Shown: positions 3,867 through 36,595 of the stretch, piece after piece
How the letters are laid out: the number at the start of each line of letters is the position of its first letter
Position numbering within the stretch: position 1 is the stretch's first letter
DNA from: Deinococcales bacterium
Lineage (GTDB): Bacteria; Deinococcota; Deinococci; Deinococcales; JAAFIG01
Direction of reading: 5' to 3'
DNA: 64,000 bases
Assembly: GCA_025359505.1 (NCBI GenBank)
Contig: JANYHH010000038.1
Coordinates: 1-64,000, forward strand
Made by a program: the position numbers and the translations under genes
Notes under the pieces: model-generated
Told to the model about the DNA's origin: nothing
What the model saw: only the letters and a program-made list of their open reading frames with translations
The model's database searches: none

Positions 3867-5081
3867 ATGGATTTCGGAGTTTTCACGCCCATCATCATCG
3901 CGCTGATCGTCATTCTCGTGGCGATTCCACTGATCGTCTCGAGCTTTCTGAGGAACGTCGAAGCCGGTTCGATCCGCATGGTTTCGTGGCTGAACGGCAG
4001 CACCCGCATTTATCGCGGGCCCGGCAAGAGTCTCGAGGTTCCGCTGTTCACGCAAGGCACGACGCTCTCCAGTAAGGCCATTAACGTGGATTTGGATATC
4101 ACCGATCAGACGGCTGATATTGACGATAAGGGCATTCCGCGCCCAATTAAGATTCAGGTGCTGGCGTCAGCGATTGTCAGTGTCGGTGACACCGACGCGT
4201 TGATTCGCACGGCTGCCAACAGGTATTTTGCCAAGCCAGACGTGGAGCAACTCAACACGCTCTCTGACCTGCTGACCAGCGCAGGGCGCAGGGCGATCAA
4301 CCTGCTGACCCACGATCAGTTGTTCAGTGCCAAAACGCCGGGGCAGCGCTCGGAACCAGCGCCTGACAGCGAGGACGACGATCCCTTGGCGATTATTATT
4401 CGCAAAGCGTGCAGCAAAGAGTTGACCGATCTGGGTCTGATCTTTAACAGCCTCAACATCAAAGTCGTGCGCTCCGAAGTCGCCGAAGCCCGCCGCCGCC
4501 AGAGCGCGGCCGAAGCCCAAGCCAGCGCCGATATCGTCAGCACGCAGCAGGCCCGTCGCGCCCGCGAAGCGCAGCTCGAGGCGGAGCGCACGATCAGCGA
4601 CAAAACCCGCGAGTTGGAGCAGACCAAGGCCAGCAACGCCGCGCTGGTCGCGCAGGCTGAGGCTTTGAAGCAGGACGCATTGGCGGCTCAGCGCAGCGCC
4701 GAGCTTCGCGCCACGCAGATCGCGCAGGCCGACGCCGACGCGGAGCGCGTGAAGATCGCCGCCAAAGCAAGTGCCGAATCCGAGGCGATTAAGATCAGCA
4801 CGATTGCCACGGCCAACGCCGAGGCGATTCAGAAGGTCAATCAGGCCATCGCCGATGGCGGTGAGTTGTACCTGCGCTACCGTCAGGTCGAGATGCTGCC
4901 GCAGCTTGTACCGTTGATTGCCGACGCGTTGGCGCAATCGAAGCTGATTACCGTTTCTGGTGGCGAAAACGGTGGTGCGGGTGGTCAGACCGCCGCGCAG
5001 ATTCAGAGCGTGATCCAAACCGTGCTGGCCGCGCAGCTCATCACCAAATCGGGCGTGCTCGAGTCAGGCAAAAGCGGCTGA
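3867..5081 (+). CDS. floA: Flotillin-like SPFH protein
   Basis: 404 residues. The ATG at 3867 is set by GAGAAGGAG at 3852-3860. An N-terminal membrane hairpin (IIIALIVILVAIPLIVSSFL) is followed by the SPFH/band 7 domain (about 30-200) and a long Ala/Glu-rich coiled coil (about 210-350) with many EA and AE dipeptides, as in flotillins. The C-terminus carries the oligomerisation region. Flotillins assemble in membrane microdomains. The NfeD-like gene just upstream supports the assignment. A strong terminator at 5116-5144 closes this pair. The gene symbol is by family only. Confidence 0.85.
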   Translation: MDFGVFTPIIIALIVILVAIPLIVSSFLRNVEAGSIRMVSWLNGSTRIYRGPGKSLEVPLFTQGTTLSSKAINVDLDITDQTADIDDKGIPRPIKIQVLASAIVSVGDTDALIRTAANRYFAKPDVEQLNTLSDLLTSAGRRAINLLTHDQLFSAKTPGQRSEPAPDSEDDDPLAIIIRKACSKELTDLGLIFNSLNIKVVRSEVAEARRRQSAAEAQASADIVSTQQARRAREAQLEAERTISDKTRELEQTKASNAALVAQAEALKQDALAAQRSAELRATQIAQADADAERVKIAAKASAESEAIKISTIATANAEAIQKVNQAIADGGELYLRYRQVEMLPQLVPLIADALAQSKLITVSGGENGGAGGQTAAQIQSVIQTVLAAQLITKSGVLESGKSG

Positions 5082-29270: not shown

Positions 29271-29343
29271 CGCCCTCAGCAAGATGAGAGACCGCTCGAG
29301 CATCGTCAATCAATCGCGGCTCTCGAGACTCAAAGGAGGACAT

Positions 29344-30021
29344 ATGGAACGCAAGCCATTGGTGCTGATCGTCGAAGACGAAAAAGACATCGCCCGCTTC
29401 ATTGAATTGGAACTCAAAGCCGAGAGTTATGACACTGAGGTCGCCTTCGACGGTGTGACGGGTTTGAGCAAATTCCGTGAGGTCAACCCAGACCTGCTGA
29501 TTCTCGATCTGATGCTGCCCGTGCTGGACGGTCTCGAGGTTGCGCGGCGCGTCAGGAAGACCAGCAACACGCCAATCATCATCCTGACCGCCAAAGACGG
29601 CATCAGCGATAAGGTCGAAGGGCTGGATGCGGGCGCGGACGATTACCTCGTCAAACCGTTCAGCATCGAAGAGTTGCTGGCCCGCGTTCGCGCTCACCTG
29701 CGCCGCGTCAACCCCGCCGTGACCGGCGAGGTGCGCGTCGCTGATCTGGTGATGAATCTGGATGGCCGCGAGGTTTTCAGAGGCGGACGGCGCGTGGAGC
29801 TGAGCGCCAAGGAATTCGAGTTGCTCGAGTTACTCGCCCGCAATCCGGGCAAGGTCTTTAGCCGTTTTGAGATCGAAGAGAAAGTCTGGCCCGAGTACAC
29901 CGGCGGCAGCAACGTCGTAGATGTCTACATCGGTTACTTGCGCCGCAAGCTCGAGGAGACCGGCGAGCGGAGGCTGATCCACACCGTGCGCGGGGTCGGG
30001 TACGTCTTGCGGGAAGAGTAA
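29344..30021 (+). CDS. OmpR-family response regulator
   Basis: 225 residues. AAAGGAGG sets the ATG at 29344. The receiver domain has Glu11/Asp12, the phospho-acceptor Asp55 in LLILDLMLP, Thr82 and Lys104 in YLVKPFS. The C-terminal winged helix (about 128-222; [20 protein letters not shown] and [13 protein letters not shown]) is of OmpR/PhoB type. It pairs with the histidine kinase 57 bases downstream. A direct repeat overlaps the likely promoter. Confidence 0.95.
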
Positions 30022-30078
30022 GCTCCCCACTCGAGCAGTGTTTTTTCGCGGCTCGAGGCTCGAGAGGATGGTTGGCAC

Positions 30079-31542
30079 TTGACGCTGCGTTGGCGCTTGA
30101 CGCTGTTTTACACTTCGTTGATCGCGGTGCTGCTGGCGGCCGTGTTCACGACCGTCTACTACCTCGTGCGCTCGTCGCTGGTGGATGCCACCAACCGCGA
30201 GTTGAACAGCGGATTGACGCAAGTCCTGCGGGCCACGCAGCTTTCACCCACGGCCACGCCGTCGGAAAGCGATTGGGATGCGTTCTCGGCCGATTTGTAC
30301 GCGCAAGTCGAGCAGCGCCTCGAGCAGCCCAGACAAGCCAGTGACTTCGAGCAGTTGGGGTTCGCTCGGCTCAGTATCGGGCTGCAAAGCGCCAATGGCA
30401 ACCTCGCCTTGCCGCCCGATGGCTACGCGATATTGGTCAGGACTGGTTCATACCGAGGCGAGGGCTTGCTGCGCGTTAACACCAGCTCGTTCCCCGTCGA
30501 GATCACCGTGCAAATGCTGCCGGCCGCGATTCTCGAGTCTGGCAATACGGTCTATCCAGTCGTCTACGTCGCCAAGGATTTCGCGCCGTACCAGAACATC
30601 CTCAGCGTGCTGGCCCAGCGCATGATTCTGGTGTCACTACTCGGTATCGTGACGGCTTCTTTGCTGTCGTTCACGCTCGCACGGCAGGCGCTGGGGCCAA
30701 TCCGTCAAGTGCGCGATGCGGCCGCGCTGATTACGGGCAAAAACTTGAATCGCCGCGTGCCAGAACCCGGTACACGCGACGAAGTGGAAGACCTCGCCCG
30801 CACCTTGAACGGGATGCTCGAGCGGTTAGAAAGCAGCTTTGAAACCCAGCGGCGCTTCACAGCCGACGCCAGCCACGAGTTACGCACGCCCGTGACCGCG
30901 ATTGCGGGTCACGCCAGTTACCTGCTGCGGCGCACGAATCCCACGGAGGGGCAACGCGAATCGCTCGAGGCGATCACCAGCCTGTCCACGCGTTTGGGAC
31001 GGCTGATTGGGGATCTGTTAGACCTCGCTCGCGCCGATGCTGGCTTTGGTGTCGAGCCGCAGGAAACCAGCCTCGTGGCGCTGGCTGAAGACGTGCATCT
31101 CGAGGTCGCGGCGATTGCGGGCAACGCTGAAATAGAGATCATTGGGCCGCGTGACTTGCGCGTCTCGGTCGACCCGCACCGTTTCAGGCAGGTGATTCGC
31201 AACCTCGTGCAGAACGCGCTAAAAGCCGGCTCGACTCGCATCACTGTTGAGGTCTCTAAAGCGCTCGATCACGTCTCCATCAGCGTGTCCGACAACGGCA
31301 GCGGCATCGCGCCGGAGCATTTGAGTAAACTTTTCGACCGCTTTTACCGCGTGGATTCTTCCCGCGACCGAGGCGCTGGCGGCTCTGGCTTGGGGCTGAG
31401 CATCGTCAAATGGATCGTCGAGGCGCATCAAGGTGAGTTGCGCGTGACGAGCACGCTCGGGACTGGCTCGAGGTTCGAGGTCGTGCTGCCCGTGCCCGTC
31501 GCCCATCCGACCAGCGTCCGCCGCGAGAAGCAAGCGGTCTGA
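30079..31542 (+). CDS. Sensor histidine kinase
   Basis: 487 residues from a TTG with GAGAGGA upstream. Two membrane helices (about 6-30 and 175-200) flank a sensor domain of about 145 residues outside the cytoplasm. A HAMP domain (about 200-255; LARQALGPIRQVRDA) precedes the phospho-accepting His in DASHELRTPV and the ATPase with the N box NLVQNALK, G1 DNGSGI and G2 GGSGLGLSIV. Together with the regulator it forms a classic two-component system; the signal is unknown. Confidence 0.95.
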   Translation: MTLRWRLTLFYTSLIAVLLAAVFTTVYYLVRSSLVDATNRELNSGLTQVLRATQLSPTATPSESDWDAFSADLYAQVEQRLEQPRQASDFEQLGFARLSIGLQSANGNLALPPDGYAILVRTGSYRGEGLLRVNTSSFPVEITVQMLPAAILESGNTVYPVVYVAKDFAPYQNILSVLAQRMILVSLLGIVTASLLSFTLARQALGPIRQVRDAAALITGKNLNRRVPEPGTRDEVEDLARTLNGMLERLESSFETQRRFTADASHELRTPVTAIAGHASYLLRRTNPTEGQRESLEAITSLSTRLGRLIGDLLDLARADAGFGVEPQETSLVALAEDVHLEVAAIAGNAEIEIIGPRDLRVSVDPHRFRQVIRNLVQNALKAGSTRITVEVSKALDHVSISVSDNGSGIAPEHLSKLFDRFYRVDSSRDRGAGGSGLGLSIVKWIVEAHQGELRVTSTLGTGSRFEVVLPVPVAHPTSVRREKQAV

Positions 31543-31611: not shown

Positions 31612-31971
31612 TCAAGCTTTTTTCAGTCGCTCGAGCGCTTCGTCTGGGGTCAACTCGCCGCGCTCCAAGGCTTTGATCACATCATCTTTGTCGTCGCTCG
31701 GGTCGGCCTCGTATCCAAGCTGGCGCAGTAAGCTGTCGAACCGCGCCCTGACCGTCGGGTAGGAAATGCCCATCACGCGCTCGACCTCTTTGAGGTTGCC
31801 GCGCACTTTGATGTAGAGCCGCAGAAACTCGAGTTGCTCTTGCGGCAGCACCGCGAATTCGTTGAGCCTAAACGTGCCTTCGATAGCGATGCCGGACTCT
31901 GGGAACAGCAGCTTCGTTACTAGTGGCGCTTCGGCAATGCCGGGGAAATTCGTGGGTAAGTCGTAAATCAT
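31612..31971 (-). CDS. DUF2089-type small DNA-binding regulator
   Basis: 119 residues. Residues 35-85 form a helix-turn-helix (EQLEFLRLYIKVRGNLKEV, then ISYPTVRARFDSLLRQLG), the hallmark of DUF2089. The C-terminus (VIKALERGELTPDEALERL) repeats the short helical motif found in the N-termini of the proteins encoded upstream. It is last of four same-strand genes and probably regulates the cluster. Confidence 0.85.
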   Translation of the reverse strand: MIYDLPTNFPGIAEAPLVTKLLFPESGIAIEGTFRLNEFAVLPQEQLEFLRLYIKVRGNLKEVERVMGISYPTVRARFDSLLRQLGYEADPSDDKDDVIKALERGELTPDEALERLKKA

Positions 31972-31987
31972 CTTGACCTCGAGCCGT

Positions 31988-32260
31988 TCAAGTGACGCTC
32001 ATGCGAATTTCATCGCCATCAGCGGTTGAAATATCAATGAAATTGCCGACTGGCAGTTCGTCTCCGCGCAGTGGCTCTTGCAGACTCGCCATGTCTACTC
32101 CTTGCTCTTGCAGAATGCGTTGCGCCTCTTTGGGGATCAGTTTCAACGCGAAATTCGCTAATCCGAGCGGGATGTTAACGCGTGCCTCGTCGCCGTTCGA
32201 GGTGTCCACTTCAATCTTCAACATTCGCGAAGGGGTGTTTGTACATAGGTCTTCAGCCAT
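31988..32260 (-). CDS. Short paralogue of the next upstream protein's C-terminal domain
   Basis: 90 residues. The ATG at 32260 has AAGAGGTG upstream; ATG 32266 and GTG 32269 lie too close to that site. From residue 13 on it is almost the same as the C-terminal 80 residues of the 32274-32852 product (MLKIEVDTSNGDE versus LLKIEVDSSSGDE, both ending in DISTADGDEIR). It thus looks like a recent tandem duplicate that lost the N-terminal motif. Function unknown. Confidence 0.8.
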   Translation of the reverse strand: MAEDLCTNTPSRMLKIEVDTSNGDEARVNIPLGLANFALKLIPKEAQRILQEQGVDMASLQEPLRGDELPVGNFIDISTADGDEIRMSVT

Positions 32261-32273
32261 ATTCATCACCTCT

Positions 32274-32852
32274 TTAGTTGATGCTTATACGAATCTCGTC
32301 GCCATCGGCCGTTGAAATATCGATGAAGTTCCCGTTCGGCAGCTCGTCGCCGCGCAGCATCTCTTGCAAACTCGCCATGTCTAAACCCTGCTCCTGCATG
32401 GCGCGTTGCGCCTCTTTTGGGATCAACTTCAGCGCGAAATTGGCCAGCCCGAGCGGGATGTTGACGCGCACCTCATCGCCGCTCGAGGAGTCCACCTCGA
32501 TTTTCAGCAGTCGCGCCCCACCTTTGGTATCGCCACCTTTGCGTCTGAACGCGTTGTTTATGCGTTCACCAATCATGTCGCCTAGTCCCGCGAAGTCGTC
32601 AGCGCCGCCCATGAACGAAAAGCTTTTTTCGTGTCTCGAGTCGCTGCTCGTTTCTGCCTGACCGCCCGCCTCGAGTACCTGCGCGAGCGACGCGGCGTTC
32701 ATGCCTTCAGACATCAGTTGAAACAGTCGCTCCCACGTTTCCGGCGGGAGTTTCTTCAAGTTGCTGGATAGTGCGGTCAGTAACTTGATCGCATCTTCCT
32801 TGCCGATCTTGCCGTCCTTTGCGAGTTGTAAAACGCGCTCTACTTCGCCCAT
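32274..32852 (-). CDS. Unknown protein with N-terminal SHOCT-like helix and conserved C-terminal domain
   Basis: 192 residues. AAGGAG with 9-base spacing sets the ATG at 32852. The N-terminal motif (VLQLAKDGKIGKEDAIKLL) resembles a SHOCT short helix. A low-complexity link leads to a C-terminal domain (about 115-192; KIEVDSSSGDEVRVNIPLG) duplicated in the next gene. In Bacillus and relatives, proteins of this type sit in YvlB/LiaX-like operons with DUF4097 proteins and respond to envelope stress (family knowledge). Confidence 0.8.
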   Translation of the reverse strand: MGEVERVLQLAKDGKIGKEDAIKLLTALSSNLKKLPPETWERLFQLMSEGMNAASLAQVLEAGGQAETSSDSRHEKSFSFMGGADDFAGLGDMIGERINNAFRRKGGDTKGGARLLKIEVDSSSGDEVRVNIPLGLANFALKLIPKEAQRAMQEQGLDMASLQEMLRGDELPNGNFIDISTADGDEIRISIN

Positions 32853-32959
32853 GATTTCATGCTCCTTTGATGCTCGAGCGGTCAATGCTCGAGCCTGTTG
32901 CTGATTGAATTGCACGTTGCTCGAGCGTGACAGTGAAGACCTTCGCCTGCCTTGCAAAG

Positions 32960-33913
32960 TTACTGGCTCGAGCCGCCGATCGCTTCGATGTTCAAATCCC
33001 CAGCCGTCAAGCGGCACTCCAAAGTCGCCCGCCCACCACCCAAGCGCCCCTCGAGCGAGCCGCCCGTGATGCGCTTCTCCGTCTGGGTCAGGATGAAACC
33101 TTTGGCGCTGACATCGCCTGCGACGGTGCTGGCTTTCAAAGTGACGCTCGAGCCGGATTGCAATTTGAGGCTGATGTTGCCCGCGAGGGCTGATAAGCGG
33201 CTGTCGCCCGCGGTCAATGTCGTGCTGACTTTGACATCGCCGGCCTTGGCGCTGATGTCGAAGCTGCCCGCATCGTTCAGCGTCAAATCGCCCGCTTGCA
33301 AATCCATGGTCACGCGCCCGGTCACGCCGTTTACGTCCACGTCACCCGCCAAAGCCTTGACTTCTAAAAGCGCGAGGTCGCTGGGTACGGTGATCTCCAA
33401 GTTGACGGGCAGGTTGCGGCCGATGGTTTTAAGAACCGTGTTGAGCCAGCCGATTTCGGTCGGGTCATGAATCAGCGTGCTGGCGACGAGGCGCACCTCG
33501 TCGCCATTGCGGATGACCTCGAGCCGCCCGTTGTCGCTGTGCGCGGTGATGCCTTGGTGGTTGGGCAGGCCGCGAATGTTGATGTCGCCAGCGGTGATGC
33601 TGACGCTCAGTTTGCTGATTGCGCCATCGATCTGAGCGCTGCTGGATTGCGTGGTTGTGCTGGCGGCGGTCGCCGGAGTGGGAGGCGCTGGTGGTGTTTG
33701 TGCGGCTCGAGGCGGTGGTGCAGGAGGGGTAACGGGTGTTGGCGGTACGGCTCGCGCTGTCGGGGGCGGTGTAGGCGTTCCGCCGCTACCCGTTAGCGGG
33801 GCGCTGGTGGTGTCGCCGGTGTTGTCAAGCGCTTTCAGCAGCTTGTTGGCTTCCTCTGGGCTGATCTTGCCTTGGCGCAGCAGATTTTCGATGCGTTCGC
33901 GGAATGGATCCAT
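32960..33913 (-). CDS. DUF4097-like beta-helical protein (YvlB/LiaX type)
   Basis: 317 residues. The N-terminal SHOCT-like helix (RIENLLRQGKISPEEANKLL, about 6-25) precedes a Pro/Thr/Ala-rich linker (about 35-95) and a right-handed repetitive beta region (about 100-317) with recurring motifs such as ALAGDVDVNGVTG and LSALAGNISLKLQSG. It lacks a signal peptide, so it probably acts at the cytoplasmic side. First gene of the operon; a good promoter lies upstream at 33936-33964. Confidence 0.85.
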   Translation of the reverse strand: MDPFRERIENLLRQGKISPEEANKLLKALDNTGDTTSAPLTGSGGTPTPPPTARAVPPTPVTPPAPPPRAAQTPPAPPTPATAASTTTQSSSAQIDGAISKLSVSITAGDINIRGLPNHQGITAHSDNGRLEVIRNGDEVRLVASTLIHDPTEIGWLNTVLKTIGRNLPVNLEITVPSDLALLEVKALAGDVDVNGVTGRVTMDLQAGDLTLNDAGSFDISAKAGDVKVSTTLTAGDSRLSALAGNISLKLQSGSSVTLKASTVAGDVSAKGFILTQTEKRITGGSLEGRLGGGRATLECRLTAGDLNIEAIGGSSQ

Positions 33914-33935: not shown

Positions 33936-33964
33936 ATCATGAACTAAATCTTATAAAATGTCAA
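33936..33964 (-). promoter_or_regulatory. Promoter of the DUF4097 operon
   Basis: On the reverse strand: TTGACA (33964-33959), 17 bases, then CATGAT (33941-33936), which matches four of six in the -10 consensus. The surrounding 60 bases are AT-rich compared with the genome. It ends 23 bases before the ATG. Confidence 0.6.
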
Positions 33965-34003: not shown

Positions 34004-35617
34004 TCAGTCATCAGACTCGAGCGTCATCGGGCGGCGGCGCTGCAACTGCATCGTCCCCCCAGAGACATTGTTGGACAACCGCATGTGCTCCCTCGAGCGT
34101 GGCGGGTCGCGCTCCAGATACCAGACCGCCAAACTGAAATGCCACAACTTGCGCGATTTGAGCGGCGTCAAGGTCTCGGCAACGCGCCGCACCAGCGGTA
34201 CGGGAATCGTAAACTCGCGCTCGCCGGGAAGCGCACTGACGCGCAACTCCACCAACCAACCCGTTTCTAAGAGCGCCTCGAGACTCGGCTGTTTGCCCAG
34301 AATCGCCTCGAGCGCCCCGCTGTAAACGCTTCCACTGAACAGTGCAGCCGCCGAAAGCGTCTCACGCGCACTGCGCGGCAACTCGTCTAAGCGCCCCAGC
34401 ACCACCCGCATCACCCCATCCGGCGCTTCGCTGCCCGCGCCAACATCGCCCTCCAACAGTGAGCGCCCGAAACTCTCGAGCAGCCACGGGTTGCCGTTGG
34501 CGGCTTCGAACCAGCGCTTGACGAGGCTGATCGGTTGCGGCCCGGCGAAGCTTTCGGTGATGGCTCTGGCTTCGACGAAATTCAGTGGATTGAGTTCCAA
34601 GGTGTTGGTGATGTGATCGCTTGGGCGCACGCGATGCTCCAAGATCAGCACCGGCTGTTGACGCTCGCGCTCCAAGCTGGTCAAAAAGGTTTTCGGCAAG
34701 CGCTCGGCTTGCTCCAACAAAATCACCAAAGCATCGTGCTGCGACAACCGCGCCAAGGTGTCCTCGGGCAGCGTGGAATGCTTCGGGTGCAGCGTCACGC
34801 ACCGCGCCCCGCTGCCCTCGAGCAGCGCCATGAAGTGCGTCACCAAACGGCTTTTCCCCACGCCCGGCGCTCCCGTGACCTGCGCGTAGACCAAGGCGTT
34901 CTGGGCGCTGGCCCGCAACCACCAACTGTCCAGCAGCGCCAGTTCCGCACTGCGCCCCTGAAACGGCGCGTCGAAGGCCCGTTCCTGCGTGGAATTGAAG
35001 CTCAGTAATCGGTACGGCCCGCGCTCCTCGGCGAAATCGCGGATGCTCAGTTCGCTGACCACCGCAAAGCTCGCCCCGCCTGTGATGCTGGCCACGCCGC
35101 GCTCCGAGACCAACACCTCGCCCGGCTGCGCGGCGCTGCACAAGCGCCTCGAGAGATTGACGACGCTGCCAAACAACGTGTACTCGTTGCCGACCCAACC
35201 CGTCGTGGCGTCGTCCACATCAATTCCAGCGCGACCCTCGAGTTCAAGTCCAAGCTTCGCGCCGTAAGCGGTCACGGCGACCAAGGCCGCTTTCGCGGCC
35301 CTGAGCGCCCGCAGCGGATCGTCGCTGTGGGTTTTCACCAGTCCGAACGCCGCCAGCACCGCATCGCCCTGAAACTGCACGACGTGACCGCCCAGAGCCT
35401 CGATCTCACCGGCCAGCATGGTCAGGATTTCGCCCATCAAATCAAAATACTCTTCGCTCTGATACGACTTGGCCAATTTCGTGCTGGCGACCAGATCCAC
35501 GAACAGCACGCTAACGCGCCGCCGCTCGTGAACTTCTGGTGGTAAAAGTACCGTGCCACACGCTGGGCAAAAGCGCCAGCCGGCATCGACGTTCTCCGCG
35601 CAGTTTTGACATTTCAC
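34004..35617 (-). CDS. Zinc ribbon + class III nucleotide cyclase + AAA ATPase
   Basis: About 537 residues from a GTG at 35617. A zinc ribbon (CQNCAENV, FCPACG) opens the protein, then a class III adenylate/guanylate cyclase catalytic domain (about 30-190; SVLFVDLVASTKLAK with the metal Asp, QGDAVLAAF), then an ATPase with P-loop GAPGVGKSR (about 265) and a helical end. Relatives usually continue for another 400-700 residues with TPR repeats; this one stops early. The metal and nucleotide specificity cannot be told. The start is uncertain. Confidence 0.75.
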   Translation of the reverse strand: MKCQNCAENVDAGWRFCPACGTVLLPPEVHERRRVSVLFVDLVASTKLAKSYQSEEYFDLMGEILTMLAGEIEALGGHVVQFQGDAVLAAFGLVKTHSDDPLRALRAAKAALVAVTAYGAKLGLELEGRAGIDVDDATTGWVGNEYTLFGSVVNLSRRLCSAAQPGEVLVSERGVASITGGASFAVVSELSIRDFAEERGPYRLLSFNSTQERAFDAPFQGRSAELALLDSWWLRASAQNALVYAQVTGAPGVGKSRLVTHFMALLEGSGARCVTLHPKHSTLPEDTLARLSQHDALVILLEQAERLPKTFLTSLERERQQPVLILEHRVRPSDHITNTLELNPLNFVEARAITESFAGPQPISLVKRWFEAANGNPWLLESFGRSLLEGDVGAGSEAPDGVMRVVLGRLDELPRSARETLSAAALFSGSVYSGALEAILGKQPSLEALLETGWLVELRVSALPGEREFTIPVPLVRRVAETLTPLKSRKLWHFSLAVWYLERDPPRSREHMRLSNNVSGGTMQLQRRRPMTLESDD

Positions 35618-35824
35618 AGGGCAAGCACCGTGGACACTCGGGAAAAGACGAGATTTCTCTTGTACTGAACAGCTCCCGATCTTACGCCTCTTCGTACCCG
35701 CTAAAAGTAGCAGATTCTCAGGTGTAGCACAATCTCTGCTCACGAAGAAGTCTTCCGCACTAGCCGAGTTTCGCTGCTGCCTCTCCGAACCCGTAACCGC
35801 GAACCGCGTACAATCAATCCGACT

Positions 35825-36595
35825 GTGCAGCCCATCAAACCCCAACCGATCAAACCCGTCGCTTTTTACGGCGCTGACACCCACGCGCTAATTCACCAGC
35901 TTTACACCTTGGAGCAGCGCTTCCTACCGATCCAAGTTCCCAGCCACTCCAAGCTCGAGCGCGTCGTGCAGGGACTCGAGCCGCTGGGGTTTTTAGGGCT
36001 GGTGTTCACTGAACCCTCGGCAATGGCGCTGGCATTGGTCGACCGTCCAGAACCTAGCGCCACGCGCAGCAATCACGTCGACGCGATCCAAGTCTCCAAC
36101 GGCGTGATCGGCGCGTACACTCTGGAAGACGCGCTGCTGAGCGTTTTAGAAACTCGAGGCTACCGCCCCGTCGGAGCGCACGCCGTGATCCTCGGCGGCG
36201 GCGCGGTTGCCAGTGCGGCCGTGCAACTCGCCCGCGCTGGACTGCGAACCTTGACGATCGCCGCCCCCAACCGCCCAGCCGCTGAACGTTTAGCCCGCAC
36301 CGCGCCAGCGGGCATCACCGTTCACGCGATCAGCTTGGACGAGCCAACCGTGCTGACCGCCTTAGAAAAAGCCGATCTGATCGTCAGCGCCGACCCGGCG
36401 ATTGCGCTCGACTCGAGGTTGCTGCAACCGTTCCACACGCTGATCGAAGCAGCAGGGGAGAGCGCTCTCAGCGTCGCCTTGGAGCGAGCAGGCGGGCAGG
36501 TCATCCCGTACCGCGAGGTCAGAGCGCAGCACTTGAGCGCTCAACTCGAGTTCGTCACGGGCTGGAAGTACGACCCTCGAGCCTTGATGTTTTAG
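35825..36595 (+). CDS. Degenerate shikimate dehydrogenase (AroE)-like protein
   Basis: 256 residues from a GTG. The C-terminal NAD(P)-binding fold is intact (HAVILGGGAVASAAVQLARAG, then SADPAI), and the general order follows AroE, including a GVIGAYTLED block where AroE has its G-x-N-T-D-x-x-G. The substrate half lacks the conserved NVTxPxK region: the corresponding place reads LGLVFTEPSAMAL. The catalytic Lys/Asp pair is therefore missing or altered. It may be an AroE-like protein with another substrate. Conventional AroE is not in the window. Confidence 0.65.
   Translation: MQPIKPQPIKPVAFYGADTHALIHQLYTLEQRFLPIQVPSHSKLERVVQGLEPLGFLGLVFTEPSAMALALVDRPEPSATRSNHVDAIQVSNGVIGAYTLEDALLSVLETRGYRPVGAHAVILGGGAVASAAVQLARAGLRTLTIAAPNRPAAERLARTAPAGITVHAISLDEPTVLTALEKADLIVSADPAIALDSRLLQPFHTLIEAAGESALSVALERAGGQVIPYREVRAQHLSAQLEFVTGWKYDPRALMF

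Follow-up and report, generated by a model that had tools for sequence, protein, structure and literature searches.

A minus-strand operon in the window (the whole stretch of 64,000 nucleotides that was analysed) is best explained as a member of the known class of DUF2089-toastrack operons, in which a shared helical hairpin would bring the regulator and its partners into one complex, a reading to which a probability of about 55% is assigned. From 5' to 3', the operon consists of P1 (33913-32960), P2 (32852-32274, with an ATG start codon at 32852), P3 (32260-31988) and the DUF2089 regulator (31971-31612). Judged by sequence comparison, the hairpins of P1, P2 and the regulator are copies of one homologous module, and their sharing is real, old, conserved and ordinary for its family, where it has already been catalogued.

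Of the three copies, that of the toastrack protein P1 (317 aa), RQGKISPEEANKLL, is N-terminal (hairpin at 33818-33907), as is that of P2 (192 aa), KDGKIGKEDAIKLL (hairpin at 32760-32846), and that of the regulator (119 aa), ERGELTPDEALERL, is C-terminal (hairpin at 31618-31689). A sequence-only reading had described them as the same motif of about 14 residues; all three are present where quoted and are homologous, but instead of single 14-residue helices, the quoted segments are parts of a hairpin of about 26-30 residues with two helices, of which they cover the turn and the second helix. This hairpin is predicted in the AF2 models, with helices at residues 3-12 and 18-28 of P2 (pLDDT >90) and at residues 92-103 and 109-118 of the regulator (mean pLDDT of the model 89.8).

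The Pfam family PF22746, named 'SHOCT-like_DUF2089-C' after DUF2089, has a curated cut-off of 27 bits and matches P1 (29.9 bits, E 3.8e-7) and P2 (27.2 bits, E 2.7e-6) above it and the regulator below it (19.8 bits, E 5.7e-4). A search of the window's own 4.2 Mb genome returned five matches at E<=0.1, namely P1 (E 1.6e-7), P2 (E 3.3e-6), the regulator (E 9.9e-4) and two at a second DUF2089 locus. Against a profile of regulator tails, made of regulator C-termini from other genomes only with the window excluded, P1 scored 20.0 bits, a value reached by 0 of 2000 shuffles. P2 alone was not significant against this narrow profile (0.2 bits, 71 of 2000 shuffles as high) and matched the joint profile, and the regulator-tail profile alone detected the N-termini of the neighbours in tens of operons. 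Chance resemblance of the three motifs was ruled out by the profile searches, the whole-genome specificity and the conservation.

Of 111 genomes of the order, 105 were found to encode DUF2089; a single-protein query of the genome contigs had returned three loci only and was superseded by whole-genome family searches. The usual arrangement across 60 regions of the order places a SHOCT-like toastrack protein, a SHOCT-like protein with the C-terminal domain of P2 and DUF2089 on one strand. The gene order differs in the 40 Firmicutes regions, of which 36 have a same-strand neighbour bearing the hairpin, and the tail is kept in 38 of the 40 regulators by profile or by reading of the sequence. Plasmid records extend the regulator-partner pairing to Paraclostridium, Niallia and the actinomycete Embleya, as well as to Legionella, where a weaker hairpin is found on a membrane protein. 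Absence of the motif from the regulator in homologous operons, which had been named as an outcome that would tell against the sequence-only reading, was looked for and did not occur. PF22746 matches 61 of the 72 regulators compared from such operons (E<=0.01) and all 68 of the 68 P2-type proteins.

The hairpin is also strongly biased in its placement, with 163 of 4246 same-strand frames within 3 kb carrying it versus 1 of 4682 opposite-strand frames. Among regulators with the hairpin, 97 have a hairpin partner and 7 do not, versus 2 with and 6 without among those lacking a detected terminal hairpin (Fisher p 1.8e-5, a raw count over presence/absence entries that are not phylogenetically independent). 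The six partnerless regulators without a hairpin comprise one plasmid- or bacteriocin-linked type and one shortened protein, and the known misses in this count are two regulators with an internal hairpin (L177, L178), two loci that do have a hairpin partner (L049, L184) and one on a short contig (L055). The conservation of the linkage across phyla argues for a shared function.

In the preferred reading, the hairpins would bring the regulator and its partners into one cytoplasmic complex, either via each other or via a common ligand. How much toastrack protein and P2 there is, or what state they are in, would then set the action of the DUF2089 helix-turn-helix (HTH), the target of which is most likely its own operon. 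The proposal of the sequence-only reading that the regulator binds its two partners through the hairpin was not supported: hairpins from cognate pairs do not resemble each other more than those from non-cognate pairs (0.386 versus 0.377 and 0.385 versus 0.377), and the mutual information between regulator and P2 hairpins, at 21.8% above the clade-permuted null, was matched by an equal 21.8% excess between the regulator hairpin and the unrelated P2 C-terminal domain used as control. Since this control was equal, the excess represents residual ancestry rather than evidence of an interface, and hairpin co-evolution was dropped as a sign of binding. The regulator version of the hairpin differs consistently from the partner versions: at position 22, 44 of 64 regulators have Arg where every P1 and P2 copy has Leu, and at position 13 Glu predominates in regulators, and Lys, Arg or Gln in partners. 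These sequence differences could fit heterotypic pairing. The classical SHOCT domain gave a negative result in a test of oligomerisation (Eberhardt et al. 2013, PMC3581485). A stricter form of the proposal, namely one homotypic docking hairpin by which free partners would titrate the regulator directly, giving a soluble switch without a membrane sensor or the usual zinc ribbon, is considered doubtful.

The main rival, possible but improbable, is that each hairpin anchors its own protein, independently of the others, on the inner side of the membrane, where the regulator would be held until stress and the proteins would meet by shared location. Membrane anchoring is a proposed role of SHOCT-like domains (Ravi et al. 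2024, PMC11237479), the hairpin helices are amphipathic with moments of 0.32-0.50, and the Legionella partner joins the hairpin to a membrane protein. Against this, the hairpins are acidic on average, with net charges of -1.7 in the regulator, -1.35 in P1 and -0.47 in P2, their mean hydrophobicity lies slightly below 0, and zero membrane segments are predicted in P1, P2, P3 and the regulator. The acidic hairpins and the missing membrane segments weigh mildly against anchoring. With no membrane segment predicted in the four proteins, the sequence shows no envelope link of the kind implied by the self-contained envelope-stress switch that had been suggested for the operon; an envelope-stress role is proposed from the toastrack family alone.

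It is decidedly unlikely that the hairpin is just a common stable mini-domain that was fused repeatedly, with the operon proteins not interacting. The lack of specific covariation between hairpins would suit such a module, as would the weak matches of PF18495 (VbhA antitoxin, another short helical module) on some regulators, by which the turn signature is not exclusive, but in the window genome the hairpin is confined to DUF2089 loci (E<=0.1), and its presence in the regulator is linked to its presence in the neighbours. Equally improbable is that the adjacent convergent two-component system (29341-31542) is the main driver, with DUF2089 as a secondary local regulator: of 63 loci of the order, 17 from several families have a convergent pair of OmpR-type response regulator and histidine kinase next to the DUF2089 gene, with response regulators 81-94% identical to that of the window, but the pair was not found beside DUF2089 at the other loci, the closest relatives examined included, and it would leave the shared hairpin unexplained.

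The HTH domain of the regulator (31708-31848) is assigned to PF09862 at 79.8 bits (cut-off 33.4; E 2.4e-22), and the fold search with the regulator ranked LuxR-type HTHs and those of sigma region 4 highest, at weak E-values; fold searches of the regulator and of P2 gave zero matches at E<=0.001, and PDB sequence searches with the regulator, P2 and P1 returned nothing useful. The N-terminal zinc ribbon of DUF2089 has four cysteines, and the window regulator contains zero cysteines. In the window family the corresponding columns are occupied by other residues, as they partly are in related families, and the beta-ribbon fold of the N-terminus (31860-31971) is retained in the AF2 model despite the cysteine loss. 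Because the cysteines are lost and the beta-ribbon is kept, the window regulator is classed as a ribbon-degenerate DUF2089 relative, with the same HTH and tail and not the full three-part architecture. The nearest families lack the zinc-ribbon cysteines too, another family of the order has lost them in part, and most Thermaceae-like and Firmicutes members keep them.

In P1, the hairpin is followed by a Pro-rich linker and the toastrack domain (DUF4097), which matches PF13349 at 39.6 bits against a cut-off of 22.9; the LiaX model scored 19.3 bits on P1 and did not reach its cut-off of 350. P2, modelled with AF2 and aligned with 67 homologues, continues from its hairpin through further helices to an unnamed C-terminal domain of about 75 aa (32280-32510; strand-strand-three helices-strand-strand). 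Zero Pfam or NCBIfam models match this domain, and beyond PF22746 no other credible Pfam family was found in P2. The domain is kept in most DUF2089 operons of Deinococcales and Firmicutes. P3 (90 aa) is a free copy of it without the hairpin, with the domain at 31991-32230 and 67 of 79 residues identical to the P2 domain, and was not seen in the three nearest relatives examined.

A candidate operon promoter, TTGACA and CATGAT separated by 17 bases, was read from the sequence at 33936-33964. The element AACTTGACA upstream of P1 is present in the window and three same-family relatives, and no conserved inverted repeat was evident in the promoter region of the four relatives compared. On the operon's own strand, a short way upstream of it, lies a gene for a protein with an adenylate/guanylate cyclase domain, an AAA domain and a zinc ribbon (34007-35884), and such a cyclase-domain/AAA protein is found upstream of the operon in one relative as well (L052).

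The second locus of the same genome (contig C96; L049, 4756-6245) repeats the pairing: a DUF2089 paralogue with a similar tail adjoins a protein of 367 aa in which a SHOCT-like N-terminus is joined to an unrelated body. This body contains repeats of the form VQLGIHxIxxxYVLEL. Short DUF2089 proteins with a diverged tail, mostly close to bacteriocin genes, occur on plasmids (L186, L187, L188 and L190, each at about 4000-4700) and are followed by a small membrane protein without the hairpin. The two form a distinct pair, possibly with a regulatory or immunity function.

The supposition that hairpin sharing between a regulator and its targets is undescribed was wrong, as it is found both in Pfam and in the literature: a SHOCT-like domain at the DUF2089 C-terminus in toastrack operons and toastrack proteins with SHOCT-like N-termini have been reported (Ravi et al. 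2024, PMC11237479). No functional study of DUF2089 regulators and toastrack operons was found in the literature searched, and these are widespread in Deinococcales and Firmicutes. Through the conserved three-way hairpin sharing, the way in which the regulator may sense its partners becomes open to direct test; since the sharing is already catalogued, the value of the window operon is mainly that of a clear test case.

Among known systems, the DUF2089-toastrack operons (PMC11237479) share with the window a DUF2089 protein with a C-terminal SHOCT-like domain in an operon with N-terminal SHOCT-like toastrack proteins, and the window differs from them in the loss of the zinc-ribbon cysteines, the absence of a membrane protein from the operon and the addition of P3. 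PF22746 is the window motif itself, with P1 and P2 above the cut-off and the regulator copy below. The classical SHOCT domain (Eberhardt et al. 2013, PMC3581485) is likewise a short bi-helical module added to many proteins, but the window hairpin is a SHOCT-like relative of it; the classical SHOCT model is absent among the Pfam matches of the operon proteins up to E 10. LiaX/YvlB toastrack proteins (LiaFSR-LiaX), an envelope-stress family, resemble P1 in that a helical N-terminal part precedes a beta domain of the DUF4097 type, whereas the window operon carries no LiaF, LiaS or PspC gene and its regulator is a DUF2089 protein.
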